A DNA stretch of 64,000 nucleotides from Rhodococcus sp. W8901. GTDB taxonomy: Bacteria; Actinomycetota; Actinomycetes; Mycobacteriales; Mycobacteriaceae. The position numbers were made by a program, and so were the translations under genes. Shown here in pieces: positions 17,124 to 56,039 of this stretch (position 1 is its first letter; every line of letters begins with the position of its first letter). Below the pieces are notes generated by a model, which searched no databases, was not told the origin of the DNA, and was given only the letters and a program-made list of their open reading frames with translations. The stretch spans positions 5,518,001-5,582,000 of the forward strand of contig NZ_CP054690.1 in NCBI RefSeq assembly GCF_013348805.1, given 5' to 3'.

Positions 17124-17237
17124 CTCGACACCCTATGTGTGGCACCACGCTTACAACGCGCCGTTCGCTTCCCGGGCTCGGATCCGGCCAGCGGGAAATT
17201 CCTGTACGCGGGCTCCCCGCCCCGCCACGTGTCCTGT
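16657..17237. repeat. ~580-bp duplicated segment, copy 1
   Basis: This segment is repeated at 43889-44469 at a constant offset of 27232 nt, apparently without mismatch apart from the ragged left edge. The right edge of identity falls inside the palindromic repeat (after GTGTCCTGT). Confidence 0.9.
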
Positions 17238-17260
17238 TTATCGATCGCCGAACGCGACAC
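17229..17260. repeat. 32-bp palindromic repeat, site A
   Basis: GTGTCCTGTTTATCGATCGC then CGAACGCGACAC. It shares a further ~20 bp (GAGAGCTGCGGAATGGA) with site G at 45.6 kb. It lies between the divergent duplicated membrane protein and the YdcK-like gene. Confidence 0.75.
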
Positions 17261-17386
17261 CGGATCGAGAGCTGCGGAATGGAAGCCCAGGGGAGAATGT
17301 TCACCGCCAGCCTCCTCATGCCGGCGAGCCGTCTTGTGCCCCGGCTGAGCTGTGCGTGGGGACGGAGACCAGAAGCGAAGGACGAC

Positions 17387-18181
17387 ATGACCGGCAAGCA
17401 CTTCGAGCTGACCGACGAAACGCGAAACTACTTCGGCCGCAACCTGCATCGCATCCGTGCCACACGCGACATGCCACGGTACGGCGTCCGCAAGGGCGAC
17501 GTCGGAGGGTGGGTTGAATGCGAGCGCAATGTCTCCGGGTACGCGTGGGTGTCAGGCGACGCGAGGGTGTTTGGCGACGCATGGGTATCCGACAACGCGG
17601 AGATCTCAGGCAACGCGGAGGCCTCAGGCAACGCGAGGGTGTCCGGCAACGCGGAGGTGTCCGGAGACGCGCGGGTGCACGGCGACGCGCGGGTATACGG
17701 CGATGCCGAGGTGTACGGCGATGCCACCGTGTTCGGCAACGCGGACGTGTCCGGAGACGCGACGGTGCACGGCGAGGCGAGGATATTCGGCGACGCGGAG
17801 GTCGAAGGCAACGCCAGCGTGTACGGCAACGCGGACGTGTCCGGCGATGCGAGGGTATCCGGCCACGCCGAGGTGTACGGCCGAGCAACTGTCACCGAGC
17901 GCCAGGACATCCTCGTCGTCTACCCCATCGGCTCCCAGTCCGTCGCCGCGACTCTCACTCGCACCGCCGCCGGCCACAACTTATCGGTCGGGTGTTGGCA
18001 TGGCGGCACCATCGACACACTGCCTGCAGAGGTAGATCGGCGCTCACAGACGTGGCCAGGATCAGAGCAAGATCATGCCCGCTGGCGCGCCGAGCACGAG
18101 GCGCTGGAGGCGCTGTGCCGGGCGCGTATCGCTGGGTGGAAGCGTACGGACGAAGGCCCTGCTACCGACTGTCCTGTTTGA
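17387..18181 (+). CDS. YdcK-like hexapeptide-repeat (left-handed beta-helix) protein
   Basis: Encodes 264 residues; ATG 17387 follows GAAGGA. The N-terminus has the YdcK-type sequence YGVRKGDVGGWVECERNVSG. Residues ~50-170 are about 20 tandem six-residue repeats of the form [V/A]-x-G-[D/N]-A-x (WVSGDARVFGDAWVS...), which should form a left-handed beta helix. The C-terminal 90 residues are unassigned. The 12- and 18-nt DNA repeats of this region are coding, not CRISPR. The stop codon lies inside palindromic repeat B (residues CPV then TGA). Role unknown; YdcK homologues are also of unknown function. Confidence 0.7.
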   Translation: MTGKHFELTDETRNYFGRNLHRIRATRDMPRYGVRKGDVGGWVECERNVSGYAWVSGDARVFGDAWVSDNAEISGNAEASGNARVSGNAEVSGDARVHGDARVYGDAEVYGDATVFGNADVSGDATVHGEARIFGDAEVEGNASVYGNADVSGDARVSGHAEVYGRATVTERQDILVVYPIGSQSVAATLTRTAAGHNLSVGCWHGGTIDTLPAEVDRRSQTWPGSEQDHARWRAEHEALEALCRARIAGWKRTDEGPATDCPV

Positions 18182-18189
18182 CGATCGCG
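18169..18189. repeat. Palindromic repeat, site B (half site)
   Basis: CTGTCCTGTTTGACGATCGC. The stop codon of the YdcK-like gene is formed within the repeat, so the repeat sits exactly at the cassette end. The second arm is degraded. Confidence 0.7.
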
Positions 18190-18269
18190 ACCAACGGTAG
18201 TCCGTGGTCCGGGCACCCCTGATCGCCTCGGTGTCGTCGGTGTCACAGCACGTTTCCTAGGATCGGGGC

Positions 18270-19130
18270 GTGCCCGATTCAAGATCACCCAAGACCCGGG
18301 CGCGGGACATCGACCGCGCGGAGACCTGCAGCCTGCTCGACGCTGCGTACGGGGACGGTCAGCTCGGTGTCGACGACTACGAGGCGCGCACCGCGGCCGC
18401 GATGCACGCGGAGACGCTCGGCGATCTGTGGGCACTCACCGAGGATCTGCAGGTCCCAGACCATCTTCGCGAGTCGCCGGAGTCGCCCGCCGACGAGGCC
18501 GGACAGTCGCACCGCCGTGGCCTCGTCCTGGCCGCGATGCTCGTTTCGGCGGTGGTGGTCTGCGGCGTCATCGGCTACCTGCTGTCCAGCAGTGTTGCCG
18601 GTGGTGACCAGTCGACCGGTGGTTCAGGATCGACTGCTGCCCAGCCTGCGGCGGCCGGTGAACCGGACCCGATCGCGGTCGAGCCGATCAACCTGCACAC
18701 CGCCGACGGCATCCGCGAGTTCGTGCGATTGTTCGAACTGCAGTTCCGCGACACGATCGCCGACGATGTCGATCTGTACCGGGACGACGCCATCGTCGTG
18801 CGGATGGTTCCCCAGCAGCCGCACCGGTACCTGCGGTGGCGGTTCACCGGCGGGTTCGAGCAGTGGACCAACCTGCCCGGTCTCCGGGATCGGGATCGGG
18901 AGACGGTCGACCTCGCTCAGCTCGATGCCGACCGCATCGGTGGCCTGATCACCGGCGCGCTCCAACAGGTGCATCTGCCCAGCGGACGCATCGATCGTGT
19001 CGCGATCCGCGCCAACGACGGCCAGTCGCTCGTCACCGTGTACGTCGTGGACAACGACGAGTCCAGAGGGAACGTGACAGCGACACTCGGCGGCGAGATC
19101 GTGGAAGTCCAGACCGCACGGCAGGGGTGA
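18270..19130 (+). CDS. DUF1707 membrane-anchored protein 1
   Basis: Encodes 286 residues from GTG 18270. Residues 10-65 are a DUF1707 (SHOCT-like) domain: RARDIDRAETCSLLDAAYGDGQLGVDDYEARTAAAMHAETLGDLWALTEDLQ. One membrane helix follows (LVLAAMLVSAVVVCGVIGYLL), then an extracytoplasmic domain of about 170 residues. The gene next to it is a paralogue with the same layout. DUF1707 is typical of mycolic-acid actinomycetes; function not established. Confidence 0.75.
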   Translation: MPDSRSPKTRARDIDRAETCSLLDAAYGDGQLGVDDYEARTAAAMHAETLGDLWALTEDLQVPDHLRESPESPADEAGQSHRRGLVLAAMLVSAVVVCGVIGYLLSSSVAGGDQSTGGSGSTAAQPAAAGEPDPIAVEPINLHTADGIREFVRLFELQFRDTIADDVDLYRDDAIVVRMVPQQPHRYLRWRFTGGFEQWTNLPGLRDRDRETVDLAQLDADRIGGLITGALQQVHLPSGRIDRVAIRANDGQSLVTVYVVDNDESRGNVTATLGGEIVEVQTARQG

Positions 19131-19132
19131 CC

Positions 19133-20023
19133 ATGGCGACCAACCGCCGCCGACGGGCGACGACCGTGCCGGTACGTGCTCGGGACATCGACCGGGCCGA
19201 CGCCCTCGCCCTCCTCGACGCCTCCTACGAGACCGGGCAGCTGAGCCCCGACGAACACCGGTCGCGCGTCGAATCCGCCGCCACCGCAGCGACCCTCGAC
19301 GAACTCGACCGGCTCGTCGGTGACCTGCAGCTCACCGACGAGGTCGTCGGGAGAACACGGTTCACGCCGCCACCCCCGGACCCGCAGCCCGCGCCGTCGA
19401 CTTCCACTGTGTCGGCTTCCACTGCGTCGACCTTTCCGGGATCCACGCCACGGCGCCGCGCCGTGGTCCTGGCCGGGGCAGCGCTCGCAGGGGGGCTGCT
19501 GTTCGTGACGCTGGTGGGCAAGGCGCCCGACTCGGGAACGAACTGGGCGGCGCCGGAGACCTCGGACAGCTCGGCGCTGTTCACGTTGGCAGGGTTCGGG
19601 CAGATGCTCGACGACATCCAGCGTGAGTTCGGCGACCTCGTCGTCGACCGCATCACCATCTACCCTGACCGCGCCGAAATAGAGCGACCCATCGAGGGTA
19701 AGCCCGGCCAGGACCAGAGCTACCGCTACCAACTCATCTCCGGTACAGGAGAACTCACCGACCAGGGCACGTCCTCGCGTAGCAGTGACGCGGTCCCCGA
19801 CGATCTCACTCCGCTCCGGCAAAACCTGCCACGCGTGATCGGGCTGTTCTCCGGAGCAGACCGCACCCTCCGGGTCGAGAACCCGACCTCGGCGCACGTG
19901 ATCATCGGAGCGAGCGGGCCGATCGTCGAGATGAACCTGACGAACGACGAGCAGGGCACGACGGGCTACCTCAGCGTCGGGTTCGACGGGGTCATCCGAC
20001 GCATCCACCGATCGGACCAGTGA
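19133..20023 (+). CDS. DUF1707 membrane-anchored protein 2
   Basis: Encodes 296 residues; ATG 19133 is 2 nt after the previous stop, so the pair is co-translated. The DUF1707 domain (RARDIDRADALALLDASYETGQLSPDEHRSRV...LVGDLQL) is followed by a Pro/Ser/Thr linker, one membrane helix (AVVLAGAALAGGLLFVTLV) and an outer domain similar in size to that of its neighbour. A tandem paralogue pair probably forms a heteromer (inference). Confidence 0.75.
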   Translation: MATNRRRRATTVPVRARDIDRADALALLDASYETGQLSPDEHRSRVESAATAATLDELDRLVGDLQLTDEVVGRTRFTPPPPDPQPAPSTSTVSASTASTFPGSTPRRRAVVLAGAALAGGLLFVTLVGKAPDSGTNWAAPETSDSSALFTLAGFGQMLDDIQREFGDLVVDRITIYPDRAEIERPIEGKPGQDQSYRYQLISGTGELTDQGTSSRSSDAVPDDLTPLRQNLPRVIGLFSGADRTLRVENPTSAHVIIGASGPIVEMNLTNDEQGTTGYLSVGFDGVIRRIHRSDQ

Positions 20024-20738
20024 GCGCGGACCAGCTTCACGCGATGTCGCGGGTACGGGTGACCCACCAGCCCAGGCCGCTTTCTCGAATGAGCTCGACA
20101 AAGTTCAACGGCACGGCCCACAAGATCATCTGTATGTCATTGGTGGTTCAGCCCGCTGACAGTTGCTGATGGCCCGAAGGTGCCCAACATGGGTGTCCTG
20201 TTTGACGATCGGTGAGCGGGACTGGGACAGGTCGTAAGAAGGCGGGCAAAACCACGACCTCAAGTGCAAATTGGCGATTCAGACGAAGCGCCGTTGAGCT
20301 TCGACATCCAAGCGACGCTCATCATGCTCACCTACGCAGGATGCCGGCGCACCTCCCGACTGCGAGCGTGGCCGGTGCCCGGTCGCTGTAGATTGCGGCC
20401 GCGGCATCGGCCGACAGAGGCTTCGAGGCGTCGATCCATTCCCGTTTCCCCGGCGCGCGGAACCGCTCCAGGTAGGCCGCCCGATCCACCGCCGTGAAGG
20501 CTTCTGCAATCGCGGCACTGAGCCCAGGGATGGACGTCAGGACGTTCCGACGAAAGACGCCCGGGAACCCCCCACCGCCTTACCCGTCACGTCAGCTCCC
20601 CTCCACAGTCATGATGCACCAAGTCCGACCGCCCTCGGCCAGATCCACGACGAGCGCCCATGGACCAGCACGAAGGACACCCGGCGATCGTCGTCGCAAC
20701 CGCGATGCAAGGGGGGATGCAAGGGGGAACGTGACACC
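20024..20738. other. Gene-poor region with repeat C and a minus-strand remnant
   Basis: Palindromic repeat C is at 20193. On the minus strand about 20345-20570 a frame without clear start reads NVLTSIPGLSAAIAEAF, then YLERFRAPGKREWID and ends GRCAGILRR; its codon pattern looks coding, so it may be the end of a truncated gene. The 17-mer ATGCCGGCGCACCTCCC at 20341 recurs at 45558. I see no promoter or RNA gene. Confidence 0.4.
20193..20222. repeat. Palindromic repeat, site C
   Basis: GTGTCCTGTTTGACGATCGG followed by TGAGCGGGAC; 170 nt after the second DUF1707 gene. Confidence 0.75.
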
Positions 20739-21419
20739 TCAGGCGTGGTTCGTGCCGTGATCGGCGAACTCGGCAAAGCTCTCCACCTGGTCAAGGTCCG
20801 GGTCGAGGGCGCGGGCGAGCCAGAGTTCGTACCAGTCGAGGAACGTCAGCGGCTCGCGGGTGTCCGGGTGGAGCACCGGCAGCGCGGCGGCGTGCTCGTA
20901 GCTGTGCCACCACACCTGCCCCGCGGCCGGGCCGCGCAGGATCAGGAGGTCGTACGTGCCGCATCCCTCGTTCGCGAGGAATGTCGCGCCTCGGTGGATC
21001 CGGCCGATGTTCTCCGTCCACTGGAACTCGGAGTCCTCGGCGGCGGGCGGGCAGGGTCGCTCGGCGGTGAAGGGGAAGTCCGCGGCGTAGTCGATCGCGG
21101 CGTCCTCGGCCTCCTGCGCCAGCGGGAGAAGTCCGAGCATCGGTCCGGCTCCGCCGTCGCCCACCCGGGTGATCCACTCGCGGTAGTCGGCCGGAAGGCC
21201 GACGCCGAGCCGGTTCTCGAATGCCGCGAGGACGTCCGGGTCCGCGGTAGCGGCGTGCTCGTAGCGATGCACGGCCGCCCCGTGGATGTGGCAGCTGTAG
21301 CCGATGACCTCCCGGTCGCCGAGCGGGACGACGGTGGTCTTCAGATCGGCTGCTCGTAGTCGGTCGAGGCCGGTCAGGATCTCGGCGATCCGGTCCGGGT
21401 GCGTTTGCGCGTGTTTCAT
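20739..21419 (-). CDS. SMI1/KNR4-family protein
   Basis: Encodes 226 residues from ATG 21419. The SMI1/KNR4 signature is visible: FENRLGVGLPADYREWITRVGDGGAGPM.GLLPL, then IGRIHRGATFLANEGCGTYDLLILRGPAAGQVWW and FLDWYELWLARAL. SMI1/KNR4 proteins are common immunity proteins of contact-dependent and polymorphic toxins. No toxin gene is next to it. Preceded and followed by remnants. Confidence 0.85.
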   Translation of the reverse strand: MKHAQTHPDRIAEILTGLDRLRAADLKTTVVPLGDREVIGYSCHIHGAAVHRYEHAATADPDVLAAFENRLGVGLPADYREWITRVGDGGAGPMLGLLPLAQEAEDAAIDYAADFPFTAERPCPPAAEDSEFQWTENIGRIHRGATFLANEGCGTYDLLILRGPAAGQVWWHSYEHAAALPVLHPDTREPLTFLDWYELWLARALDPDLDQVESFAEFADHGTNHA

Positions 21420-21818
21420 GCTCACATCCTGACGGATGCGACGACTTGCCTCTGAGTTCGGTGACACACCTACATTGACAGGCGCGTCCGACCACGGTCA
21501 AAGTGCACAGGCTACTTTGACGGATCTCGGGAGAGTCGGCGAAGCCCGTCGATATAGGTGTACCGCCGGATCGAAAGGTGGTCTGCTACGCCATGACCCC
21601 ACAACCGGCTCGTTCACGGACCGCACAGCAACGGATCCCACTCCTGGCCGATTGCATCGCGTCGACACGGCGAGAGACGATGCGCCCGTGAGTATCTCCG
21701 ACAAGAAGGCTACCGACCTCAATGCACTCGCGGACGATGGCGAACAGAACGTAGAAAGTGCATCTCGTCCAATCCCGTACGTGCCCAAGTCGCTTTCGGA
21801 CATCGATCTTCGCCATGT
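21420..21818. other. No supported gene
   Basis: Open frames exist on both strands (21436-21822 plus, 21498-21968 minus) but neither shows family features or a convincing start, and both have mixed codon usage. I see nothing else here. Confidence 0.3.
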
Positions 21819-21998
21819 GTGACCACCGCTGAGAAGGCTGCGGTCATACGTCAACGGGGCATCCGGGTACTCGAGCACTCCCTGAACGCCTACGGGCGCG
21901 CCGGCAAGCCGTGCCCGCGTTGCGGCCCGCCGATGGTGCGGGAGACCTTCATGAACCGCGGTTCGCACTTCTGCCCGAGGTGCCAGCGACGGCGCTGA
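21819..21998 (+). pseudogene. Fpg/Nei DNA glycosylase, C-terminal zinc-finger fragment
   Basis: A 59-codon frame (GTG 21819) ends with [18 protein letters not shown] and [14 protein letters not shown], the four-Cys zinc finger that closes formamidopyrimidine and endonuclease VIII glycosylases. The catalytic N-terminal domain (Pro2/Glu3) is absent. It is probably a remnant, although an expressed free zinc finger cannot be excluded. Confidence 0.7.
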
Positions 21999-22227
21999 CG
22001 CTCGTGTTCGATGCCGGGAAGGATGTCGAGACTTGGCGCGTGAGCGCAGTCGCTTCTGGCTCTGTGGCTCAGGTCTACGTCAACGCGGAGTGAGCGAGCG
22101 ATCGGCGTGTAGCGCGACGTGAACGTGTCCGTGGCTTGCAGGCGCTGATGCTTGACGCCGGAGCGCCTCGGGTCGCGGTGGCGTCCCGGCGGATCTCAGC
22201 CTCGAGCGGATCCGGATGAGCTGTGGG

Positions 22228-22737
22228 TCAGAGACGGGCAGGTCTCAGCGGCTCAATGACCTGGGCCTCGGAGCGCTCGCGCAGCTTGAGAAGCGCCTCG
22301 TCAAGGCTCGAGCCGAGCAGGTGGAGGGTGTTCATGCCGCGCGATTCCCACACCGGAAACTCCTCGTCGGCATTGCGGCTTGCGACGTCCCAGAGGAGAA
22401 GGTCGCCGTTCTCGCTCCAGCCGAAGACCTCGAGTCGTTCGGCGAGGTCCCAGCTACCGTCGGGCTCGATCATCCAGCCGAATTCCTCCTCTTCGCCGTC
22501 GCGGAAGACCGCGTGGAAGTGCTCGGTGAGGTTCGCTGCACGGGCCCGCCCGTCTGCGAAACCGGGTTGCACGGGCGGGTAGATGAGCCACAGGCCGAAC
22601 GTGCGGGCCCAGCCGCAGGAGCGAACAAACTCGCGGTAGCTCTGGGGGTACCCGCCGCCGTCCGGGAAACGGAACGAATCGACTGCCTCGAAGTCGACAT
22701 GCTCGAACGAGGGGGATTCAGGCGCGGGGACACTCAT
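22228..22737 (-). CDS. SMI1/KNR4-like protein, 169 aa
   Basis: Reads FRFPDGGGYPQSYREFVRSCGWARTFGLWLIYPPV, GWMIEPDGSWDLAERLEVFGWSENGDLLLWDV, the compact SMI1-type fold pattern. It has no signal or membrane segment. It is the second SMI1-type gene within 2 kb and again has no visible toxin partner. A transposon-end-like element follows upstream at 22945-23163. Confidence 0.7.
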   Translation of the reverse strand: MSVPAPESPSFEHVDFEAVDSFRFPDGGGYPQSYREFVRSCGWARTFGLWLIYPPVQPGFADGRARAANLTEHFHAVFRDGEEEEFGWMIEPDGSWDLAERLEVFGWSENGDLLLWDVASRNADEEFPVWESRGMNTLHLLGSSLDEALLKLRERSEAQVIEPLRPARL

Positions 22738-23212
22738 GACTCGATTATGGTCGGATTGCTGAAGCCACGCCCCTGGAACCAGATGGAGTGAAGGCGGCGA
22801 CCGTCAGTCCCACACCACGAACACGACGCGTTCGTGTCCGGACACTGCAGGGATCCGGCAGTACTCCTCGCCCGACATCGGACGCCAGTTGACAGTAGAC
22901 ATCGCAGGTAGAGCCCAGGATCGCGTCGAACCGCGCTAGTTAGACCAGCGTCGCGTTTCGCTAATCTTCGCTGCAAGTCGACAGGAGTGTAGGTTCCGGA
23001 TCTACTTGTCCGAGCCGCCTGGGATTTCCGAGATCTTCCGCGACACTTGTCCACGAAATTCCGTGCGAAGATGTCCCTTTCCACAGCCCTGGTCCGAGTC
23101 GAAGCCAGGTCATCGCGGCCAGGCTGACTCTCGGTCTCCACCGTCACCTTTTCGCAGCCCAAGTAGCGCGTAATTCGGGGGACACTGCCCCTAGAAAAGG
23201 AGGTGACTGACG
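22738..23212. other. Remnant region with transposon-end-like element
   Basis: At 22950-22985 a TTTCGCTAATCTTCGCTGCA block is shared with the TnsA-like gene (29.55 kb). At 22991-23163 a good copy of the GTAGGTTCCGGATCTACTTG element follows. A minus-strand tail (SGEEYCRIPAVSGHERVVFV) at about 22800-22890 looks like the end of a lost gene. Confidence 0.55.
22945..23163. repeat. Transposon-end-like element, copy at 23.0 kb
   Basis: Shares blocks in the same order with 37410-37640 and 58761-59010: GTAGGTTCCGGATCTACTTG, TCCGAGCC.CCTGG, GACACTTGTC.ACGAAATTCC, CCACAGCCCTGGTCCGAGTC, GGTCTCCACCGTCACC. No intact open frame is carried. Confidence 0.75.
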
Positions 23213-23320
23213 ATGGGTGACACCTTCTGGTTCCTCCCGTTACCGTATGAGACCCTGCGATGGCCGGCCGCGACCTATCCGTGCCTGGTCGACTTCCAGC
23301 GCAGTTGCTTCCCTGGGTAA
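23213..23320 (+). CDS. Tiny aromatic-rich peptide 1, 35 aa
   Basis: ATG 23213 follows an excellent Shine-Dalgarno (AAAGGAGGTGA). The peptide begins MGDTFWFLPLPYETLRW and ends QRSCFPG, with 2 Trp, 4 Phe, 2 Tyr and 2 Cys. A 10-bp-stem terminator starts 8 nt after the stop. Two similar tiny ORFs occur at 23.8-24.0 kb before a near-identical terminator. Too short for standard gene callers. Function unknown. Confidence 0.55.
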   Translation: MGDTFWFLPLPYETLRWPAATYPCLVDFQRSCFPG

Positions 23321-23327
23321 CGCACAG

Positions 23328-23359
23328 GCGGGCCAGCGAGGTTTGGATTGCTGGCCCGC
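23328..23359. terminator. Bidirectional hairpin terminator 1
   Basis: GCGGGCCAGC / GCTGGCCCGC, perfect 10-bp stem with 12-nt loop, between peptide 1 and the convergent protease remnant. A second copy with a 12-bp stem is at 24061-24095. Confidence 0.75.
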
Positions 23360-23369
23360 TGTCATGCTC

Positions 23370-23546
23370 TCAGTTGTTGGTGACGACGAGGTTGTCGCCG
23401 ACCTGGCTCGGGTTGGAAAGGATGCTGGCGAGGACCGGCGCGAACTTGACGTAGCGGAATCCGTTTGTGTCGACGCCATTCACCATGCCGACGATCTTCG
23501 TGGTGCCGTACATGTAAGCAGGACCGCCCGAGTCACCACCGTTGGA
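23370..23546 (-). pseudogene. Chymotrypsin-type serine protease, C-terminal fragment
   Basis: The frame reads NGGDSGGPAYMYGTTKIVGMV and ends VGDNLVVTNN. GDSGGP is the active-site Ser motif, and the ending matches that of the intact protease at 27895 (FVITNN). The N-terminal part with His and Asp is missing; upstream the DNA switches to another gene (23533-23757). Confidence 0.75.
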
Positions 23547-23757
23547 CGAACCACACGATCAGATCCGGGTCGCATTCTGCGAGCAGCCCGAGAATCCGCT
23601 CGGCTTCGGAAACCGCCGGGTCGACGCATGGCACGGCGTCGGCTGCGGTGGACGTCGGGGTGACGGTGATGGCGAGACAGTATTCGCTGTCGGAAGCTCG
23701 AGCCGGAGCCGCGTAGACAGCTATTTCCACTGGTAGGTGAAGCGGATGTCCATCCAA
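23533..23757 (-). CDS. Hypothetical protein, 74 aa, possibly truncated
   Basis: Reads MDGHPLHLPVEIAVYAAPAR, ..AVSEAERILGLLAECDPDLIVWFVQRW. Codon usage looks coding. Its last few codons overlap, in another frame, the protease fragment's GDSGGP region, so the native end is probably lost at the junction near 23546. Confidence 0.4.
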   Translation of the reverse strand: MDGHPLHLPVEIAVYAAPARASDSEYCLAITVTPTSTAADAVPCVDPAVSEAERILGLLAECDPDLIVWFVQRW

Positions 23758-23836
23758 ATCTTCTGTTCGACCACCTCCGAGGTCTAGCCTGACCTGACAG
23801 GGTCGGGACGGTCAGGCACCCCCCAGGGGTTTGCAC

Positions 23837-23938
23837 ATGATCCCTAATGGCTGGAAGTGGGGACTCCCCTTGCCGCGGGAGTGGCGTCGCACGATCTGGG
23901 CCGTGATCCCATGTGACCTCGGCGGACACTGCACCTGA
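23837..23938 (+). CDS. Tiny Trp-rich peptide 2, 33 aa
   Basis: ATG 23837 follows AGGGG about 9 nt upstream. Peptide starts MIPNGWKWGLPLPREWRRTI and ends CDLGGHCT: 4 Trp, 2 Cys, net basic centre. The next tiny ORF begins 16 nt after its stop, so the two form a mini-operon ending in the 24061 terminator. Unknown function; candidates are a signalling peptide, small toxin or bacteriocin-like peptide. Confidence 0.5.
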   Translation: MIPNGWKWGLPLPREWRRTIWAVIPCDLGGHCT

Positions 23939-23954
23939 CTGGAAGTGAACTCGG

Positions 23955-24044
23955 ATGGACCCATACGGGATTTGGTTCGGCCCCATCGGCAACCTGTTGG
24001 ACATCGTGAACTACTGGCTGACCTACGGGCACCTGCCCGGCTGA
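23955..24044 (+). CDS. Tiny aromatic peptide 3, 29 aa
   Basis: ATG 23955 with GGAAGTGA upstream. Starts MDPYGIWFGPIGNLLDIVNY and ends LTYGHLPG. It is amphipathic with Trp/Tyr/Phe and ends 16 nt before a perfect 12-bp terminator stem. Forms a pair with peptide 2. Confidence 0.5.
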   Translation: MDPYGIWFGPIGNLLDIVNYWLTYGHLPG

Positions 24045-24060
24045 ACGCCTGGAACAACGA

Positions 24061-24095
24061 CAGCGGGCCAGCATGATTCGATTGCTGGCCCGCTG
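24061..24095. terminator. Bidirectional hairpin terminator 2
   Basis: CAGCGGGCCAGC / GCTGGCCCGCTG, perfect 12-bp stem, 11-nt loop. Stem and the following ~25 nt (TGTCATG.GCTCAGTTGTTGG) are nearly the same as at 23328-23390, so terminator plus protease end were duplicated together. Confidence 0.75.
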
Positions 24096-24103
24096 TCATG
24101 CGC

Positions 24104-24130
24104 TCAGTTGTTGGTGACGACGAAATTTCA
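24104..24130 (-). pseudogene. Scar of a second protease 3' end
   Basis: Only the final codons FVVTNN and stop of the protease family are left, next to duplicated terminator 2. The sequence further upstream on this strand is unrelated. Confidence 0.6.
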
Positions 24131-24357
24131 AACCCATTGAGAGTGCACTCGATTCAAGAATCCGGAGTCGGCTCGCTGGCTTCGCGGGGTGACGGCCTGG
24201 TCCTCATGCTTGGTCTGGGTCGTAATTTCAGCTAAATTCTTGGGCCGCCTGGGGTTGCGCTGCCGGGTGTAGGTGCGTTCCATCTGCTCGAACGGTGCAA
24301 CACGGCGGCGAGTAATAGAGTGACGAGACCTGGCCCCGATTGTTCTTGGAGGTCGCC

Positions 24358-24780
24358 GTGATCGATTTCGTTCGCCGATCGGTCGCCTGCGCGGCCATCG
24401 TGGCCGGTTCGGTTCTGGCGCCGGCGGCCGTCGCCTCCGCCGCGGCCACCGTTCCGTTCCAAATCGACCCGGCGCCGTTCGGAAACCCGAACGGCAGCTT
24501 CGACGTACCCGCGTTTCGCTGCGTGGCCGTGGTCGGCGAACAGTCCGGGACGGTGACGATCACCGGCCCGAAGGAGGGCCGGTGGGGATGTCTACTTCCG
24601 TCAAACGTGCACTGGCTGAACCTGTCTAGCGGAGCCTCCGGCTCCGCCCAGATGTCGGGCGGCTTGGACGGACGCCCGGCAGCGGTCCTGCCGACCGGGA
24701 CCGGGCAGGTTGTCGTCGCCGTGGTAATCGATGGCAGCACGATCATCACACCGGGCGTCGCAGCCGTCTACGTTCCGTAG
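24358..24780 (+). CDS. Secreted protein, 140 aa (family with 54370 gene)
   Basis: GTG 24358 is chosen for the Shine-Dalgarno TTGGAGG. A signal peptide runs to VASAAA (about residue 27). The mature domain contains PFQIDPAPFGNPNGSF, RCVAVVGEQSGTVTITGP, VHWLNLSSGASG and ends GVAAVYVP. The gene at 54370 has the same layout (HWRNISTGAAG ... VWTVP), and a truncated third copy is at 54880-55050 on the minus strand. Family name unknown to me; a cell-surface role is likely. Confidence 0.65.
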   Translation: MIDFVRRSVACAAIVAGSVLAPAAVASAAATVPFQIDPAPFGNPNGSFDVPAFRCVAVVGEQSGTVTITGPKEGRWGCLLPSNVHWLNLSSGASGSAQMSGGLDGRPAAVLPTGTGQVVVAVVIDGSTIITPGVAAVYVP

Positions 24781-25186
24781 ACGACTGCCCCGCGGGCCCG
24801 GGACGACGCGCTGGTCTCCACTCACCAGGTTCGGAGACGCCCGAACCGACTGACTTCGTAACGGCTTTCGCGATGTGTCTCAGGAACCCGCCTCATACTC
24901 CTCACGTCCTCTCGACCGCGGAACAGTCCCTCGCTGACCAGAGGAAGCCCGAAGCTATCGATTCCGGCCGCCGGAGGCCGGCTGGCCCGAACCGATCTGC
25001 CGGAACCGGCCCGAAACTCCTGGCCGAAACTGGTTCACCCGAATCCTCGAACCGATTACCTGCCACCGGGCGCTGTCCTGTTTGACGATGGTCTGTCAGG
25101 ACGGTGTGCGACGGTTCAGGACCGGCTGCGGCCCGGGCCGCAAAAGCGCGAGGCGCATCGGCTGGTGCCTGGGCCGTGGTCATCGT
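24781..25186. other. Intergenic with hairpins and repeat D
   Basis: CCGGCCGCCGGAGGCCGG hairpin near 24965 could end transcription of the secreted-protein gene. Palindromic repeat D is at 25073-25102. No gene is supported. Confidence 0.4.
25073..25102. repeat. Palindromic repeat, site D
   Basis: CTGTCCTGTTTGACGATGGT followed by CTGTCAGGAC; outer arms GTCCTG/CAGGAC pair. Confidence 0.7.
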
Positions 25187-37257: not shown

Positions 37258-37869
37258 CCGGTATCAGCGAGTCAACGCAACTGGACCGGAGACAACCTCA
37301 CCTGCTGGTCATTCGGGATGCGTCCGTCTCATCGGATCACAAAACCCCAGGTTCTTGTCTCAACATCTCAACATGTCCGAATTCTGTCTCAAGATTCGGT
37401 GTCTGCGGCAGTGTAGGTTCCGGATCTACTTGTCCGAGCCACCTGGGATTTCCAAGATGATCTTCCACGACACTTATCTACGAAATTCCGCGCAAAAATG
37501 TCCTTTCCCACAGCCCTGGTCCGAGTCGATGCCAGATCATCGCGGCCACACATACTCCCGGTCTCCACCGTCACCCTTCCGCAATCCCAAGAAACCACCA
37601 TCGCGGCCGCCACAGGCACTCGGTGCCGGTTCCTGCCACCCCTCCGGGTCTCCGGCAGCCCTGCGATCGGCGCAAACATCGGCTTCCGGCTATGGCGTGG
37701 CGGCGCGCGCTCGAACCGACGCGCTCAACTCCGCCATCCACATCGTCACCTCGCGCAAACACGAACACTCCGCACCGGCCGTGCGACATCACAGGTCAGT
37801 CCTCAGCTGACCAGCACCAGAGCGCCCCGGTCGATAAGCTCGACCGGGGTGGTTCAGCACGGAGGGCCG
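37258..37869. other. Transposon-end-like element and possible transposase tail
   Basis: At 37410-37640 is the longest copy of the GTAGGTTCCGGATCTACTTG element. From 37640 to 37810 a plus-strand frame (ARTDALNSAIHIVTSRKHEHS) faintly recalls the tail of IS110-type transposases. A hairpin GCCCCGGTCGATAAGCTCGACCGGGG occurs near 37825-37850 in the repeat context and may terminate transcription. Confidence 0.45.
37410..37640. repeat. Transposon-end-like element, copy at 37.4 kb
   Basis: Same block order as at 23.0 and 58.8 kb, continuing to GGCACTCGGTGCCGGTTC, which is also in the 58.8 kb copy. Confidence 0.75.
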
Positions 37870-43158: not shown

Positions 43159-43356
43159 TGATCCGGTTGGGCGCGCCGGCCCCAAGCCGTGTGCGATCGC
43201 CGTTTCGAATTCCGGGTCGCTATGACTGGACGATCTGTCCTGTCCTGTAAGGCGATCGCTCTACGGCACGAATCAGCGCCCTAGCCTGCGGTTCGGCGCG
43301 TAGCCTCCAACTTCGGTGCGCAGCGCCGCGTCTGCACTGCGATAGCGTCGCCCACC

Positions 43357-43785
43357 ATGAGCGATCAGTGCGTGTTCTGCGAAATCGTTGCCGGCAAGGT
43401 CCCCCACGCGAAGGTGTTCGAGGATGACATGACCTACGCCTTCATGGACATCAACCCGGCTTCCGACGGCCACCTGCTAGTTGTTCCCAAGCGGCACAGC
43501 AAGGATCTGTTGGAGATTCCCGCCGATGATCTGACTGCCGTCACCCTGACCGCCCAACGAATCGCCAAGACGGCCATCAAGGAGCTGGGCGCCGACGGGG
43601 TGAATCTTCTGAACTGCTGCGGCGCGGATGCATGGCAAACCGTGTTCCACTTCCACCTGCATGTGGTGCCGCGGTATGTCGACAAAGCGAAGGATCGACT
43701 GGTCCTGCCTTGGCAACCGGGGGTCTCGGGCTATGCGGACACGATCACCGCATTGGCTGATCAACTTTCGCCCGCCCTGGATTGA
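43357..43785 (+). CDS. HIT-family nucleotide-binding protein
   Basis: Encodes 142 residues. MSDQCVFCEIVAGKVPHAKVFEDD and the histidine triad TVFHFHLHVVPR are clear. HIT proteins hydrolyse adenosine 5'-monophosphoramidates or related nucleotides. A degenerate palindromic repeat lies 100 nt upstream (about 43237-43262) and repeat E 60 nt downstream, so the gene sits like a cassette between repeats. Confidence 0.9.
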   Translation: MSDQCVFCEIVAGKVPHAKVFEDDMTYAFMDINPASDGHLLVVPKRHSKDLLEIPADDLTAVTLTAQRIAKTAIKELGADGVNLLNCCGADAWQTVFHFHLHVVPRYVDKAKDRLVLPWQPGVSGYADTITALADQLSPALD

Positions 43786-43843
43786 GGGGCTGAAGCTCGG
43801 GCGGTCCTTCTCGGTACGAAATCCCCGACGGCGCCGCACAAGG

Positions 43844-43872
43844 GTGTCCTGTTTGACGATCATTGGTCAGGG
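43844..43872. repeat. Palindromic repeat, site E
   Basis: GTGTCCTGTTTGACGATCAT followed by TGGTCAGGG. It is the left border of duplicated segment copy 2. Confidence 0.75.
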
Positions 43873-43881
43873 CGATTGGTG

Positions 43882-44355
43882 CTAGTCCTGCTGGAAAAGG
43901 TGGTCATAGCCGATGGCGAAGGTGAGGTCGGACGGTTCCACCATCACCGTGCGCCGGTCACCGACCTGCGGTCGCACGCTACCTGTGGGCACCTCACAGC
44001 CCGCGTCGAACGTGTCAAAACCCGGGCCACTGATACGGACCGTCAGTTCGGCGATGTCCTGGCCCTCGTCGCTGCCCCGGATCCGGTTGACGGCGAGGAT
44101 CTCCGCCGTCGCCGCGATCCCAGCGGCCCGGAATCGCTTTTCGTCCCAACGCCACCCGTAAGTACTGACTGCAAGCCCGATTCCGATCGGGAGGGTGAAG
44201 ACTCCCCACCACAAGCCGGTCGCCAGCGAACCGTCGGCCCACCCGGCAATCGGCCCGGCCAGGATGAGACCACCCGCGATCGAATACGTCATCACCCCGC
44301 CGGCGGGACCGATGAGCTCGACCTGTCGCGGCCCCTTCGCGTTCTTGTTGGACAC
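43882..44355 (-). CDS. Two-helix membrane protein, copy 2
   Basis: Encodes 157 residues, identical to copy 1 (16644-17123) except for the last residues (LFQQD). It is bordered by palindromic repeats E (43844) and F (44461), so the gene plus its promoter form a complete repeat-bounded unit. Two membrane helices and a soluble beta-rich domain, as in copy 1. Confidence 0.65.
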   Translation of the reverse strand: MSNKNAKGPRQVELIGPAGGVMTYSIAGGLILAGPIAGWADGSLATGLWWGVFTLPIGIGLAVSTYGWRWDEKRFRAAGIAATAEILAVNRIRGSDEGQDIAELTVRISGPGFDTFDAGCEVPTGSVRPQVGDRRTVMVEPSDLTFAIGYDHLFQQD

Positions 44356-44469
44356 CTCGACACCCTATGTGTGGCACCACGCTTACAACGCGCCGTTCGC
44401 TTCCCGGGCTCGGATCCGGCCAGCGGGAAATTCCTGTACGCGGGCTCCCCGCCCCGCCACGTGTCCTGT
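43889..44469. repeat. ~580-bp duplicated segment, copy 2
   Basis: Repeats 16657-17237. Identity ends within repeat F after GTGTCCTGT; beyond it the two copies have different neighbours (YdcK-like gene versus O-methyltransferase). Confidence 0.9.
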
Positions 44470-44488
44470 CGATCGCCGATCAGGACAC
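44461..44488. repeat. Palindromic repeat, site F
   Basis: GTGTCCTGTCGATCGCCGAT then CAGGACAC. Shortened centre but perfect outer arms GTGTCCTG/CAGGACAC. Confidence 0.75.
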
Positions 44489-44525
44489 TCTGCCGGGTCG
44501 GGAGATCCAGCGAACCCACGGCGGT

Positions 44526-45542
44526 TCATCCGTCGGTTTGGTACGCGACGCTGAACTCCACCGCGATACGTCCGTCCGACACTGGGACCGAGGTGTGGAA
44601 CTCGAGTCCACAGTGGGCGGCAAGCTCGATCAGCTCGTCGACCGTCCTCTCCTTGCCTCCGAAACACATCAGCATGAACAGGTCCATGCCTGTGCCAACG
44701 CCGTGCCCTCGTACCGGCTCGACAACCACCACTGAGCCGCTCGGGGTTGCCGCCCGCCTGCACTCGGTCAGGATCTTCCGGGCGTGCTCGTCGTCCCAGT
44801 CGTGGAGGATGTCGGAGAGCAGGTAGGCGCCCGCTCCCGCGGGCAACGGGTCGAAGAAGCTGCCGGAAATGGCGCTCGCCCGATCCCCGAGTCCGCCGGC
44901 AGCGAACCGTTCGGCGGCCGCGGTCGCCGTGGGCGCCAGGTCCAGGACCCGGCCCTTGACCCCGGGATGGGCGTGCAGAATTTCGCTGAGTAGCTGCCCG
45001 TCTCCGCCGCCGACGTCGACGATGTCGGGAAAGCGGCTCCAGTTCAAGCTCTTCGCGATCTGCGGTGCCTGTTCGCGGAACCGCCAGTTCATCTGGGCGT
45101 CGAAGGTGCTCCGCAGTTTCGGCTCGGCGTCGAGATCCGCCCAGAAGTCGTGGCCGTACCGGTGCGGATAGGAGGGTGCGCCTGTGGTGACCGTTTCGAG
45201 AAGATCGACGAAGGCGAGTTCGGCGCGACCGCCTGCGCAGGTGATGTCGAGCAGGGGTTTGACCCCTTCCGGGGCGTCCTCGCTCATCTGGGCACCGAGG
45301 CGCGTGGGCCGGTAACGGGCGGGCTCGGCATCGAGACCGAAGACGCCGATCGTGACCAGGTGGTCGAGCAGGCGGCGCAGTGCCTGTGTCTCCGTTCCGG
45401 TTGCAGTGGCGAGTTGCTCTGCCGTTGACCCCTCGGTGCCTGCGTGTTCGACCAGGCTCAGGGTCGCCGCTACTCGGATCGCCATGGGTGTGGCCAGATC
45501 AGCCAGCGCCATGATCGACGGTGTTGCCGCTGGTTTGTCCAC
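44526..45542 (-). CDS. SAM-dependent O-methyltransferase (plant-type family 2)
   Basis: Encodes 338 residues. The N-terminal winged-helix dimerisation domain (GSTAEQLATATGTETQALRRLLDHLVTIGVF) is followed by the SAM-binding motif IVDVGGGDGQLLSEIL, and LSDILHDWDDEHARKIL contains the catalytic His region. It should methylate a hydroxyl of a small aromatic or secondary metabolite. Bounded by palindromic repeats F and G, so it may have come as a cassette. Confidence 0.88.
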   Translation of the reverse strand: MDKPAATPSIMALADLATPMAIRVAATLSLVEHAGTEGSTAEQLATATGTETQALRRLLDHLVTIGVFGLDAEPARYRPTRLGAQMSEDAPEGVKPLLDITCAGGRAELAFVDLLETVTTGAPSYPHRYGHDFWADLDAEPKLRSTFDAQMNWRFREQAPQIAKSLNWSRFPDIVDVGGGDGQLLSEILHAHPGVKGRVLDLAPTATAAAERFAAGGLGDRASAISGSFFDPLPAGAGAYLLSDILHDWDDEHARKILTECRRAATPSGSVVVVEPVRGHGVGTGMDLFMLMCFGGKERTVDELIELAAHCGLEFHTSVPVSDGRIAVEFSVAYQTDG

Positions 45543-45582
45543 GGCACAAACCTACTCATGCCGGCGCACCTCCCAGTGAGAA

Positions 45583-45614
45583 GTGTCCTGTTTGACGATC
45601 GCCGAACGGGACAC
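45583..45614. repeat. 32-bp palindromic repeat, site G (best copy)
   Basis: GTGTCCTGTTTGACGATCGC then CGAACGGGACAC, an imperfect palindrome around CGATCG. It is followed by GAGAGCTGCGGAATGGA, also seen after site A. Confidence 0.8.
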
Positions 45615-45730: not shown

Positions 45731-46177
45731 ATGAGGGCGGGGAAGACGCAGGTAGCGATGCGGTGTGTCCCCTTCGCCATTCTTCTCGCCACCGTCGCCG
45801 CGCTTGTCTACTTCAGCCAAGAGCGTCCGTCCACGCCGACGCCGGCCGAAATCATCTGGCGCTCCGCACTGCCGGGTTGCGGCGCCGCGGCGCCGCGCCC
45901 GGGGACCGAGTCGCAGGAGCCATTCACCCCGGCGGTGATCGATTGCCTGTCGGGAGGCAGAGAACGCAGTGGCGGCGAGTTCGCGCTCACTTCGTATACG
46001 ACCGAGGGCGACCCCATCGTGTACTACCTGCGTACCGCGCCCGGCACGAATGACGTCGAGGTGCTGGTCGACTCGTCTCAGGACAAGTTCGGAGGCGGGC
46101 CTGGCTGGCGCAGAATCACCTGCACAATCGCCGAACTCTCACCTGACCTGCTGCGCGACTGCATGTCCAGGTACTGA
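45731..46177 (+). CDS. Exported DUF4362-type protein
   Basis: Encodes 148 residues. An N-terminal hydrophobic segment (VPFAILLATVAALVYF) acts as signal or anchor. The C-terminal half reads FALTSYTTEGDPIVYYLRTAPGTNDVEVLVDSSQDKFGGGPGWRRITC, matching DUF4362. Two Cys pairs are possible. Role unknown; extracytoplasmic. Confidence 0.65.
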   Translation: MRAGKTQVAMRCVPFAILLATVAALVYFSQERPSTPTPAEIIWRSALPGCGAAAPRPGTESQEPFTPAVIDCLSGGRERSGGEFALTSYTTEGDPIVYYLRTAPGTNDVEVLVDSSQDKFGGGPGWRRITCTIAELSPDLLRDCMSRY

Positions 46178-51825: not shown

Positions 51826-51862
51826 TCCACCCCGCTTTCCCCCTCGCGGGGATGTGAGGCAG

Positions 51863-51903: not shown

Positions 51904-51912
51904 TGTTTCGCG

Positions 51913-53553: not shown

Positions 53554-53695
53554 GCATGGCCGGTGACACATGAACGTACTGATGGGGCGATCCGGGAGAT
53601 TGCTCTGACCGACGTCACCGTTCTTCCGCACCGGCTCGAGGAACCTCGGTGCATGGGCAGCGCCGGATGTCGGTGGGGGCGTTTAGCCTGCAGCT

Positions 53696-53890
53696 GTGAT
53701 GCTGCGTGACACCGATGGCGGTGCTGATCCGAGTCTGGCGCCGGTAGCGACAACTCGCACCTCGGCCGCGCCGGTGGCATTGGCGGCCGAATCCGCTGCG
53801 CTGGTCAGCCGGGCGGTAGGGGTATCGAAGGCGGAGAACACCCGGCGGGCGTACGTGTCGGATTGGCGGCGGTTCGAGGAGTCCGGTAGT
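53696..53890 (+). pseudogene. Tyrosine integrase, N-terminal fragment 1
   Basis: GTG 53696 opens VMLRDTDGGADPSLAP and continues VSKAENTRRAYVSDWRRFEE, the SAM-like core-binding start of XerC/D-type recombinases. At about 53890 the sequence switches to the minus-strand gene fragment. The catalytic domain is lost. A second N-terminal fragment with the same opening is at 59347-59547. Confidence 0.65.
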
Positions 53891-54078
53891 ACTCGGTGCC
53901 CGACCGGTCGTCGAGTCTGTAGTTCGCGATCCTCGCGGTCGAGTTCTGCCAGCAGCTCCTGCTCGGGAACCTCCTCGCCGGCGAGCCGCAGAATTCTCGC
54001 GCTCCATTTCAGGTGCGCGGTCCACTCCTTCGGCGGCGGGCCGACGTAGGCGAAGTTGACGCGTCTCGGTCCGGTCAT
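53885..54078 (-). pseudogene. Truncated hypothetical gene
   Basis: ATG 54078 opens MTGPRRVNFAYVGPPPKEWT, then LKWSARILRLAGEEVPEQELLAELDREDRELQ. Good coding character, but the frame runs into the antisense integrase fragment after about 65 residues. Upstream lies degenerate palindromic repeat H (54106). Confidence 0.5.
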
Positions 54079-54105
54079 GTCAGTGAGTCAACCACCTCGC
54101 TACGG

Positions 54106-54134
54106 CTGTCCTATTTGACATCAGTTATGGACAC
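54106..54134. repeat. Palindromic repeat, site H (degenerate)
   Basis: CTGTCCTATTTGACATCAGT then TATGGACAC; outer GTCC/GGAC arms kept, centre decayed. Confidence 0.5.
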
Positions 54135-54369
54135 GGGTTTCGGAACACACGTCGGCTCTGGTCGCTTGTGTGACTTTCAGCGATAAGTGGCGCTGTTCTG
54201 ACGGCCGAAGGTGGCGGAGCTATTGCAGCTACGCTCGTCGACGCCGGATGGACTCGACCAGGTGATTCATGGTCGGGGTCACCCGGTGCGGACGTAGGCT
54301 GACAGCATCCTTCGGCCGGCGCCGGGTGTTCGTGACCGGGAGCGGGCCACCAGGCAGGGAGGTCCGTCG

Positions 54370-54795
54370 ATGAGACCACGCCACCGTCTACGCCGAGCAT
54401 CCATCGTCGCCGGAGCCGGCGTTGTACTGCTTCTCGCGGCACACCCAGCCGCCGCCGCACCGACCGACACTGTCTTCCCCATTCCCGTCGCCGCCCTCGG
54501 TCTCAGCGTCGGTTCGAGCGAACTCCCGAGGTCGGGCTACACCTACGTGACCGCCACTACCGATACTGACACTCCGGGAGTGACCCGTTTGGGGCCGTAC
54601 ATCGGTGTCCACGTCCACTGGCGAAACATCTCGACCGGTGCAGCGGGTGTCGCATACCTCGGCAACCGCGACGGCACACTGGTCGAGACCGGTTCCGGGA
54701 CGGTGGTCGCCGTGGCCACGGTGCCCCAGCCCGATGGGATCTTCTTCCTGATAGTCGTCAGCACACCCGGCGCCGGTGTCTGGACGGTCCCCTGA
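54370..54795 (+). CDS. Secreted protein, 141 aa (paralogue of 24358 gene)
   Basis: ATG 54370 after GGGAGG. Signal peptide RASIVAGAGVVLLLAAHPAAAA; mature part PTDTVFPIPVAALGL..., VHWRNISTGAAGVAYL, GSGTVVAVATV, ending GAGVWTVP. Its layout follows the 24358 protein. Unknown role at the cell surface or outside. Confidence 0.65.
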   Translation: MRPRHRLRRASIVAGAGVVLLLAAHPAAAAPTDTVFPIPVAALGLSVGSSELPRSGYTYVTATTDTDTPGVTRLGPYIGVHVHWRNISTGAAGVAYLGNRDGTLVETGSGTVVAVATVPQPDGIFFLIVVSTPGAGVWTVP

Positions 54796-54879
54796 CCGAC
54801 TCGGCAGCCGCACCCGGACCGTAGCTGGAGCTGCTCGAGGCGTTGAGCGGGGGCCTCACCGGCGTGGCCGCACCGCCGA

Positions 54880-55050
54880 CGCCGGCACACTCCCAGGCTG
54901 TTCGCCGACCACGGCCCAGCAGCGGATCGAGGGAACGTCGAGGCTGCCGTACGGGTTTCCGAACGGCGCTGGGTTGATCTGGAACGGAACGATGACCGCG
55001 GCGGAGGCGATGGCTGCCGGGGCCAGAACCGAACCGGAGCTTTCGACGCA
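54880..55050 (-). pseudogene. Third copy of the secreted-protein family, truncated
   Basis: Minus-strand frame GSVLAPAAIASAAVIVPFQINPAPFGNPYGSLDVPSIRCWAVVGEQPGSV closely matches residues ~17-60 of the 24358 protein. The signal-peptide start is cut about 10-20 nt from palindromic repeat I (55059), and the C-terminal half is missing. Confidence 0.7.
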
Positions 55051-55058
55051 GCGCCAGG

Positions 55059-55088
55059 GTGTCCTGTTTGACGATCGCTGAGCAGGCC
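55059..55088. repeat. Palindromic repeat, site I
   Basis: GTGTCCTGTTTGACGATCGC then TGAGCAGGCC; borders the truncated secreted-protein copy. Confidence 0.75.
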
Positions 55089-55187
55089 GCCCGCCGCATG
55101 CCCTAGGCGTGGGACCGTCGATGCAGCCGTGGAGAGCGCCGGGCGCCGCTACGCTCGCGGACGCAGGGACGGACTCAAGGGAGCTCG

Positions 55188-55844
55188 GTGACGAAGATCA
55201 GCAGGACAAGAGGGATCCAGGTCGACGGCGGGTGGAGTGTCGACTCCAATGCGTTCGTCGACGAGCACTACAACGCACAGGAGGTGCCGTTCGATGACAC
55301 CATGCTGTTCACCGCGGTGAACAGCATCACCGGCGAGACGGTTTCCCTCTCCTATGAGAACGCAGCCATCGGCTACTCGCTCGAGCAGATTTTGCTGTCG
55401 AGATCGTTGGGCCGATGGATGTACGACGAAGACAGGAGTGTCCACACGACGATCGCAGCCGGCCACGACATCGAGGCCATCTATGGCCTGCTCCCCCGGT
55501 TCCTCAACCCACTCAACAAGGACCTGATTCCTCTCCGGCTCTCCAGTTGGACGGTTGTCGTCAACAATCTGACTGAAACAGAAGCTGCGCACCACGACGT
55601 GGAACTGGTCTTCTCGGCGACTCATGGGAAGCTCTTCATCGACGTCACTTACACCCGGATCGAAGATCGGCCGTACTGCGTCTACATGGGGATGTCGAAG
55701 CATCCCTACACCGAACTCACCTACAAGCTCGACAAGCCGACGACGACGCGGAAGGTGATCCACCTGAACGAGGTGGACGCTGTTGCCGCGTTGATCGACG
55801 ATTTACTGACGGGACTCGAGCCCTTCTATGCGAGCGTCAGCTGA
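55188..55844 (+). CDS. Hypothetical protein, 218 aa
   Basis: GTG 55188 with GGGAGCTCG upstream. Mixed alpha/beta chain without signal peptide: MTKISRTRGIQVDGGWSVDS, HDIEAIYGLLPRFLNPLNKDLIPLRL, VYMGMSKHPYTELTYKLDKP. Family not recognised. Bounded by palindromic repeats I (55059) and J (56006), so it may be a cassette gene of immunity type. Confidence 0.6.
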   Translation: MTKISRTRGIQVDGGWSVDSNAFVDEHYNAQEVPFDDTMLFTAVNSITGETVSLSYENAAIGYSLEQILLSRSLGRWMYDEDRSVHTTIAAGHDIEAIYGLLPRFLNPLNKDLIPLRLSSWTVVVNNLTETEAAHHDVELVFSATHGKLFIDVTYTRIEDRPYCVYMGMSKHPYTELTYKLDKPTTTRKVIHLNEVDAVAALIDDLLTGLEPFYASVS

Positions 55845-56005
55845 CCATGGACGCCCCGGGCACGGCACTTTGACCTCGCCGGGCGCCTTGTCGCGCAGTC
55901 CCTTCCAGCTCGGATGACGAAGGCTCCGCCGGCATGCTCGCGGTACTCCGCCTCTCATACCAGTAGCGGTTCCACCCATGCACGCCCCGGATTCGCGGCC
56001 TCAAC

Positions 56006-56039
56006 GTGCGTCCTGTTTGACGATCGGCCTGCGCGACAC
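56006..56039. repeat. Palindromic repeat, site J
   Basis: GTGCGTCCTGTTTGACGATC then GGCCTGCGCGACAC. Confidence 0.7.

Follow-up and report, generated by a model that had tools for sequence, protein, structure and literature searches.

A palindrome clustered on a Rhodococcus chromosome is probably resolvase site I and may delimit an orphan array of exchangeable gene units

Why should a 30-bp palindrome recur between short genes in one region of a bacterial chromosome? We addressed this question in Rhodococcus sp. W8901 (NCBI RefSeq assembly GCF_013348805.1, contig NZ_CP054690.1), in a window of 64,000 nucleotides that covers positions 5518001-5582000 of its single-contig genome of 5.71 Mb. An initial annotation had proposed that the palindrome, TGTCCTGTTTGACG-AT-CGTCAAACAGGACA, marks the edges of gene cassettes. 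Our best explanation, which we hold to be probable, is that it is crossover site I, a central AT between two 14-bp arms, in the res of a small serine resolvase found mainly on Rhodococcus plasmids, and that the short gene units of the window form an orphan array in which exchange occurred at this site, acting like an integron or a dif-module array with a serine recombinase. The repeat itself proved real and far above chance, with 11 matches in the window at three or fewer mismatches (0.05 expected); these amount to 10 places, one palindrome having been scored on both strands. Genome-wide, nine copies had at most one mismatch, seven of them within the window (reversed control, 0), and 35 had at most three (control, 2). 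Near-perfect copies of the consensus, GTGTCCTGTTTGACGATCGTCAAACAGGACAC, were also found in Prescottella defluvii and R. maanshanensis.

A site matrix trained on 25 sites, eight of them from the window, scored at least 24 at nine window positions that include these eight (17229, 18169, 20193, 25073, 43240, 43844, 45583, 55059 and 56008), and its maximum in 2 Mb of random sequence was 14.3. Eight of the nine had been listed in the initial annotation, the last at 56006, and the ninth had been called weak and placed near 43237. Its site at 44461 is present but degenerate, with 4 bp missing, that at 54106 is site-like but weak, with 12 of 16 left-half matches, and a weak site near 15554 found no support, giving no matrix hit of at least 10. 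Such hits were absent before 17.2 kb, in agreement with the remark that the first 15 kb hold no site, and between 25.2 and 43.2 kb. All palindrome copies of the window are clustered within one 39-kb region.

The window sites are asymmetric, with a strict left half and a relaxed but non-random right half, and nearly all of them lie in one orientation. The matrix holds 24.3 bits in its left half and 9.1 bits in its right half, a contrast that is biased because the training sites were found via the left half. When each half was scored over 16 positions, two of which are the AT common to both, 10 window places reached at least 13/16 in either half (random sequence gave four such places in 640 kb). 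Nine of them are left-strong, with 13-16/16 in the left half and 8-13/16 in the right, so the earlier statement that all sites face the same way holds except for the deleted copy at 44461. The best copies form perfect or near-perfect dyads, as would an operator or a terminator hairpin spread through ordinary duplication. We nevertheless give this explanation the least credence of all, because the copies are clustered in one region, the sites keep one orientation among genes that occupy either strand, terminator-like sites are not in excess in 43.0-46.5 kb, and flank homology at the sites is one-sided. An ordinary terminator that follows most genes is excluded by the small number of close copies in the genome.

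What enzyme might act on such a site? A plasmid search with the palindrome returned 38 records, 27 from Rhodococcus, one from Prescottella, one from Cryobacterium and nine partial ones (Pantoea, Mycobacterium), of which 25 were matched over at least 80% of the palindrome; the Rhodococcus, Prescottella and Cryobacterium plasmids mostly carry one site per record. The exact 18-mer of the palindrome lies on nine contigs of the genomes we collected. Five of these contigs (L025, L026, L027, L029 and L030; genomes and loci carry our G and L numbers) lack the right arm, which is about chance level (estimate about 7). The exact 18-mer had no match in viral contigs, and a phage search with the palindrome gave 11 records, none matched over at least 80%. 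In three of the 12 plasmid stretches that we initially retrieved, the palindrome lies about 116 bp upstream of a gene for a 'recombinase family protein' of about 195 amino acids (aa). The protein is a small serine recombinase (PF00239) whose nearest relatives in PDB are DNA invertase and gamma-delta/Tn3 resolvase, and relatives at E<=1e-65 were found in 20 of 401 family genomes. Among resolvases at least 75% identical, 11 of 12 carry a right half-site that precedes the start codon by 116-119 bp, and none of the eight that are 62-64% identical has one at that distance. A conserved GTTTAACCGTCCTGCAT-like accessory region lies between site and resolvase gene in the loci inspected, and the same interval holds further half-site-like words, candidates for accessory sites II and III. 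We assign the palindrome to a res because site, conserved region and gene spacing match the layout given in the available text of PMC12217951, that is, site I and an accessory region upstream of the resolvase gene.

The earlier attC-like reading, with a tyrosine integrase, is not supported: on plasmids and in other genomes the palindrome stands beside a resolvase gene, as site I of a serine-resolvase res. Short units, a single orientation and cassette-like cargo such as GNAT and NUDIX would suit an integron-like system of that kind. We consider it very improbable, however, because the palindrome occupies the res position of a serine resolvase, the flanks switch at its central dinucleotide, and the sites, read directly, lack the RYYYAAC and GTTRRRY outer boxes of integron attC. 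In the region where tyrosine-integrase remnants had been noted, 59366-59583 gave an inverted 75% match to 53877-53661.

Among the 11 res sites with this right half-site, the side facing the resolvase gene does not change and the left half varies. Two sites are symmetric with G-type halves (L175, L176), two are symmetric with C-type halves (L172, L182), three join a left half of the C type seen in the arrays to a G-type right half (L171, L177, L180), one is C-like with a shift (L181) and three are degenerate (L174, L178, L179). At the twelfth resolvase of at least 75% identity and at seven of the eight at 62-64%, a TTCTGAAACTGACA-type word stands in place of the right half-site; this word resembles the termini of Tn402/Tn5053. 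Words of this type, likely termini, adjoin sites at several loci, and gene sets of the Tn402/Tn5053 type (transposase, ATPase and recombinase genes) lie beside the palindrome on two plasmids, as would be expected at a res, since such transposons hunt res sites. According to the available text of PMC7765201 and PMC12217951, Tn5053/Tn402 transposons use res sites as insertion hotspots. The palindromes could then be targets or remnants of these transposons, or of Tn3-family elements, with the cargo left behind. We think this improbable, because the junctions lie at the central AT and no TTCTGAAACTGACA-type word occurs in the window at four or fewer mismatches. The transposons share with the present system the use of res as a hotspot, and lie next to several of these sites, but they insert near site I, whereas here the flanks swap at the site centre. 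On the Cryobacterium plasmid pA26BH1 (L083 6001-6101, L233 around 7001), a Tn402/Tn5053-like gene set separates the site from a resolvase gene of 67% identity and looks as if it had split the res.

Flank comparisons located the switch. Among 63 sites in 45 loci, with near-duplicate places left out (threshold 60 bp, E 1e-8), 153 site pairs have a homologous right flank beyond the half-site, and 144 of these have no detectable left homology; the pairs are not independent, because most share one flank, the resolvase side. Sixteen pairs have a homologous left flank, seven of them without detectable right homology, and for symmetric sites that lack the accessory word the sense of the comparison may have been wrong. 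For example, pDND3B and G222 share 500 bp at 99% identity, confined to the resolvase side, and G048 and G333 are 94% identical over 502 bp on one side only. Of 684 alignment ends, 125 fell no more than 20 bp from a site, as did 26 of 361 when only distinct breakpoints were counted, where such sequence makes up 0.35% of the total (39 loci); this enrichment is an upper figure because the loci were picked for holding sites. The flanks switch at the AT, which points to a crossover at the central dinucleotide.

The proposal that the repeats are cassette-like recombination sites gained support from this flank switching at the site centre and from one unit, unit X (43860-44473), which is common to two genera. 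In G033, a genome of another genus, homology to unit X starts right after the GAT at the centre and runs for 500 bp at 88%, the left flanks are unrelated, and the unit is bounded by two sites (scores 29 and 41). Its right neighbours differ in three places, the two window copies and G033: the methyltransferase unit (44474) follows the first window copy, the 17245 flank follows the second, and the flank in G033 recurs at a site of G090 (267 bp at 84%). On the left, the first window copy adjoins a HIT-domain gene, and the G033 copy adjoins a 94-bp piece of the tail of another window gene, gene Y, a homologue of which (83% identical) lies beside res and resolvase in G090. The perfect duplication of about 580 bp reported to end at or inside the repeat was recovered as an exact match of 581 bp (16657-17237 and 43889-44469). 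The right flanks of the sites at 17229 and 45583 are common over 38 bp, half-site included, and the first array looks like the second minus the methyltransferase unit, though the common piece is short. Also borne out was the report that one gene takes its stop codon from the repeat: the TGA of the YdcK-like open reading frame (ORF), at 18179-18181, lies within the TTTGA of the site.

Single lineage-specific units had been said to occupy the intervals between sites. By our own reading of the ORFs, six of eight window units between neighbouring sites have one main ORF, but the stretch 18185-25088 departs from this pattern, including its 4.9-kb part 20209-25088, which is also the exception to a spacing of mostly 0.26-2 kb. 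Plasmid searches gave no match to unit X, to 17229-20220 or to the array of another genome, G006, and returned 16 records for 54106-56040, each covering at most a quarter of the query among the 15 matches listed. A small-gene cluster of G006 (L192 1501-3086, at 1.72 Mb) holds a copy of unit X without visible sites and, by eye, relatives of the gene beside the window site at 45583 (45731-46177) and of a gene beside the G090 resolvase.

Similar arrays were found in other genomes. In R. maanshanensis, five sites in a 5-kb stretch, all of them either facing one way or near-symmetric, accompany GNAT, AHSA1, mycothiol transferase, NUDIX and CSD-like genes (CSD below the Pfam cut-off), and in G006 four sites in one orientation accompany GNAT and SMI1-like units (SMI1 below the Pfam cut-off). 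We take such cargo, for example GNAT and NUDIX, to be like that of integron cassettes. The R. maanshanensis array gave partial matches in 29 plasmid records, of which four regions were examined. The CSD gene of pROB01 is flanked by two sites of opposite orientation, one per side (scores 28 and 16), and no site of at least 8 was present in the stretches with the hypothetical gene of L237 and the DinB genes of L238 and L240. On pLW3, a DinB-family gene lies directly beside res.

In another explanation, whole plasmids fused with the chromosome and with each other via res, and later deletions left scattered copies of site I with no cassette cycle. It accounts equally well for the plasmid junctions, and the 500-bp flank homology on one side of site I between plasmids, the lack of a second site near several resolvase-side sites and the absence of accessory sequence at the window sites all fit it. 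As several resolvase-side units have no second site in the stretches examined, some exchanges may be plasmid fusions. As a general account we find it unlikely, because it explains less well the short spacing in most units, mostly with one main ORF, and has against it the near-uniform orientation of the sites, the bounding of unit X by sites in two genera and right halves that are relaxed yet non-random.

An array exchanged at site I remains our preferred explanation, as one that builds on what the sequences hold: the res anatomy beside the resolvase gene, the flank switch at the centre, one unit in different neighbourhoods, and asymmetric sites in near-uniform orientation. Recombination at the central dinucleotide would join DNA with one site to DNA with another. 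A resolvase acting on a full res, usually plasmid-borne, would recombine its site I with the lone site I of a circular unit, and the product would have a junction of strict left and relaxed right halves at one end and of strict left and res-type right halves at the other, beside the accessory region. The latter junction would stay the best target, and repeated rounds would build arrays of one orientation; arrays split from their resolvase would persist as orphan clusters. Each window unit begins with a relaxed right half-site and ends with a strict left one. The resolvase itself may have made the junctions, with units moving as circles into the site by the accessory region, a plasmid-borne resolvase may act in trans on the chromosomal array, and array building would have a polarity. 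Tentatively, and with more doubt than conviction, we go further and propose a 'serine integron', in which resolvase and full res form a platform that captures cassettes carrying only the asymmetric site I, and directional arrays persist as chromosomal orphan clusters that plasmids mobilise in trans.

Besides the caveats given with the flank comparisons, several observations weigh against an array exchanged by a resolvase. No circle, excision or integration was seen. According to the available text of PMC12217951, work cited there found no recombination for lone Tn3 sites I, and the window sites have no accessory region. No resolvase at E<=1e-65 is present in the genome of the window or in the other 13 genomes of the genus; all that the window genome contains is a truncated cognate resolvase at 2978189, which covers residues 62-192 at 75% identity, and a 36% relative. 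In nine of the 12 initial plasmid stretches, no resolvase gene is adjacent to the palindrome, and no second site of at least 18 closes the unit beside the resolvases of G090, G115, G150, G222 and pLW3 in the stretches examined. The P. defluvii locus L033 has sites in both orientations, and units of the R. maanshanensis array hold one to three ORFs each. The right edge of the 581-bp duplication lies within the site but about 8 bp to the left of the centre, and the left edge is away from any site; around the unit X copy of G006 (1.72 Mb, 96%), the 100-160 bp that align on either side contain no site. Gene Y is shared less cleanly than unit X, with only the 94-bp tail piece in G033 and a right end about 200 bp from the next site in the window.

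How does such an array relate to known systems? It shares with Tn3/gamma-delta res a site I with crossover at the central dinucleotide and a res of about 120 bp upstream of the resolvase gene. Unlike there, many lone site I copies without accessory region, strict in the left half and relaxed in the right, stand here in nearly one orientation around short chromosomal gene units. 'Shuffling' at res was reportedly described by Kholodii in 2001. Integron cassettes and clusters of attC sites lacking integron integrases (CALIN) likewise have short units in one orientation, variable cargo and orphan arrays, and a special site with extra sequence beside the recombinase gene, but the present system has a serine recombinase and a palindromic 30-bp site with central crossover in place of attC. 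The dif layout is a 28-bp site of the XerC/XerD type; we found a 30-bp palindrome at a serine resolvase gene. By behaviour the closest analogue is the pdif modules of Acinetobacter plasmids, which the available text of PMC6449649 and PMC13141974 describes as gene modules bounded by short resolution-system sites and shuffled on plasmids, though by the tyrosine recombinases XerC/XerD and not by a dedicated serine resolvase. For Tn3-family transposons, an exchange of modules at res site I or close to it has been proposed (mBio 2020, PMC7157771, in the part available). In the open-access literature searched, as far as its available text goes, we found no description of directional arrays on lone resolvase site I.

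The cassette capture known to date relies on tyrosine recombinases (integrons and pdif modules). If our explanation is right, a cassette platform would have a second, independent origin in a serine resolvase, an enzyme usually regarded as doing housekeeping for plasmids, and this in Actinobacteria, in which integrons are scarce. The mechanism could also account for the turnover of single genes between plasmids and chromosomes of Rhodococcus. The sites and units of the window are collected in Table 1.

Table 1. Copies of site I and the units between them, in window coordinates
Feature	Position	Strand	Remarks
Site I copy	17229..17260	+	GTGTCCTGTTTATCGAT/CGCCGAACGCGACAC; ends second copy of unit X
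Site I copy	18169..18200	+	left half gives TGA stop of YdcK-like ORF
Site I copy	20193..20224	+	left 16/16, right 10/16
Site I copy	25073..25104	+	left 16/16, right 11/16
Weaker site I copy	43240..43271	+	left half TGTCCTGTAAGGCGAT; same left half at res of G222 (L177)
Site I copy	43844..43875	+	right half part of unit X; start identical in G033
Degenerate site I copy	44461..44488	+	4 bp missing in left half; closes unit X
Site I copy	45583..45614	+	most symmetric in window: left 16/16, right 13/16
Weak, decayed site-like sequence	54106..54133	+	left 12/16, right 4/16
Site I copy	55059..55090	+	left 16/16, right 10/16
Site I copy	56008..56039	+	left 15/16, right 10/16
Unit X, second copy	16649..17244	+	16657-17237 identical to first copy
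YdcK-like unit	17245..18184	+	beta-solenoid ORF 17387-18181, plus strand
DUF1707 unit	18185..20208	+	ORF 18270-19130, plus strand; space for second ORF
Gene Y	24307..24864	+	ORF 24340-24780, plus strand; within multi-gene stretch 20209-25088
HIT-domain unit	43256..43859	+	ORF 43357-43785, plus strand
Unit X	43860..44473	+	ORF 43882-44355 on minus strand, 157 aa, no Pfam hit
O-methyltransferase unit	44474..45598	+	ORF 44526-45542 on minus strand
141-aa ORF unit	54122..55074	+	ORF 54370-54795, plus strand, no Pfam hit
218-aa ORF unit	55075..56023	+	ORF 55188-55844, plus strand, no Pfam or NCBIfam hit

The 141-aa ORF unit further contains, at 54883-55037, an inverted segment that matches part of gene Y at 86%. 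The window also holds a dispersed repeat of 160-260 bp, 82-87% identical, at 22986-23163, 37410-37669 and 58763-59018, which occurs near the G006 array as well.

Among more distant resolvases, 61-65% identical, a Cereibacter stretch has one copy of a site-I-like palindrome; the palindromes picked by script beside Arthrobacter and Pseudonocardia relatives are probably not site I, and therefore nothing follows from them. A resolvase of 44-45% identity in L096 (G012:C18) is preceded, upstream of position 335, by a palindrome-like sequence of its own, GTGTTCCGTAAGCCGATCGGCCAACGGAACAC, which shares the CGATCG core and is accompanied by additional half-site-like words. In an incomplete metagenome-assembled genome of Paceibacterota (L024 2331-3022; G401 contigs C23, C55, C68, C89 and C95), perfect or near-perfect palindromes with the core CGATCG and several arm sequences occur, and pairs of them bracket single genes, two that look PaaX/Cas2-like (Pfam confirmed one) and one that by eye is NUDIX-like; a search there gave no small resolvase, the one PF00239 hit being a 276-aa open frame that is not of the small type. 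Finally, a second repeat family, GTTGTCAT(T/C)TC...GACCTGC...TGACAAC, lies in G000:C1 2936394-2979865 (L095: 12, 1456, 3150). It has seven copies genome-wide at three or fewer mismatches (control, 0), five of them within 43 kb in one orientation with short genes between, and one copy lies at the point where the resolvase remnant starts (residue 62).

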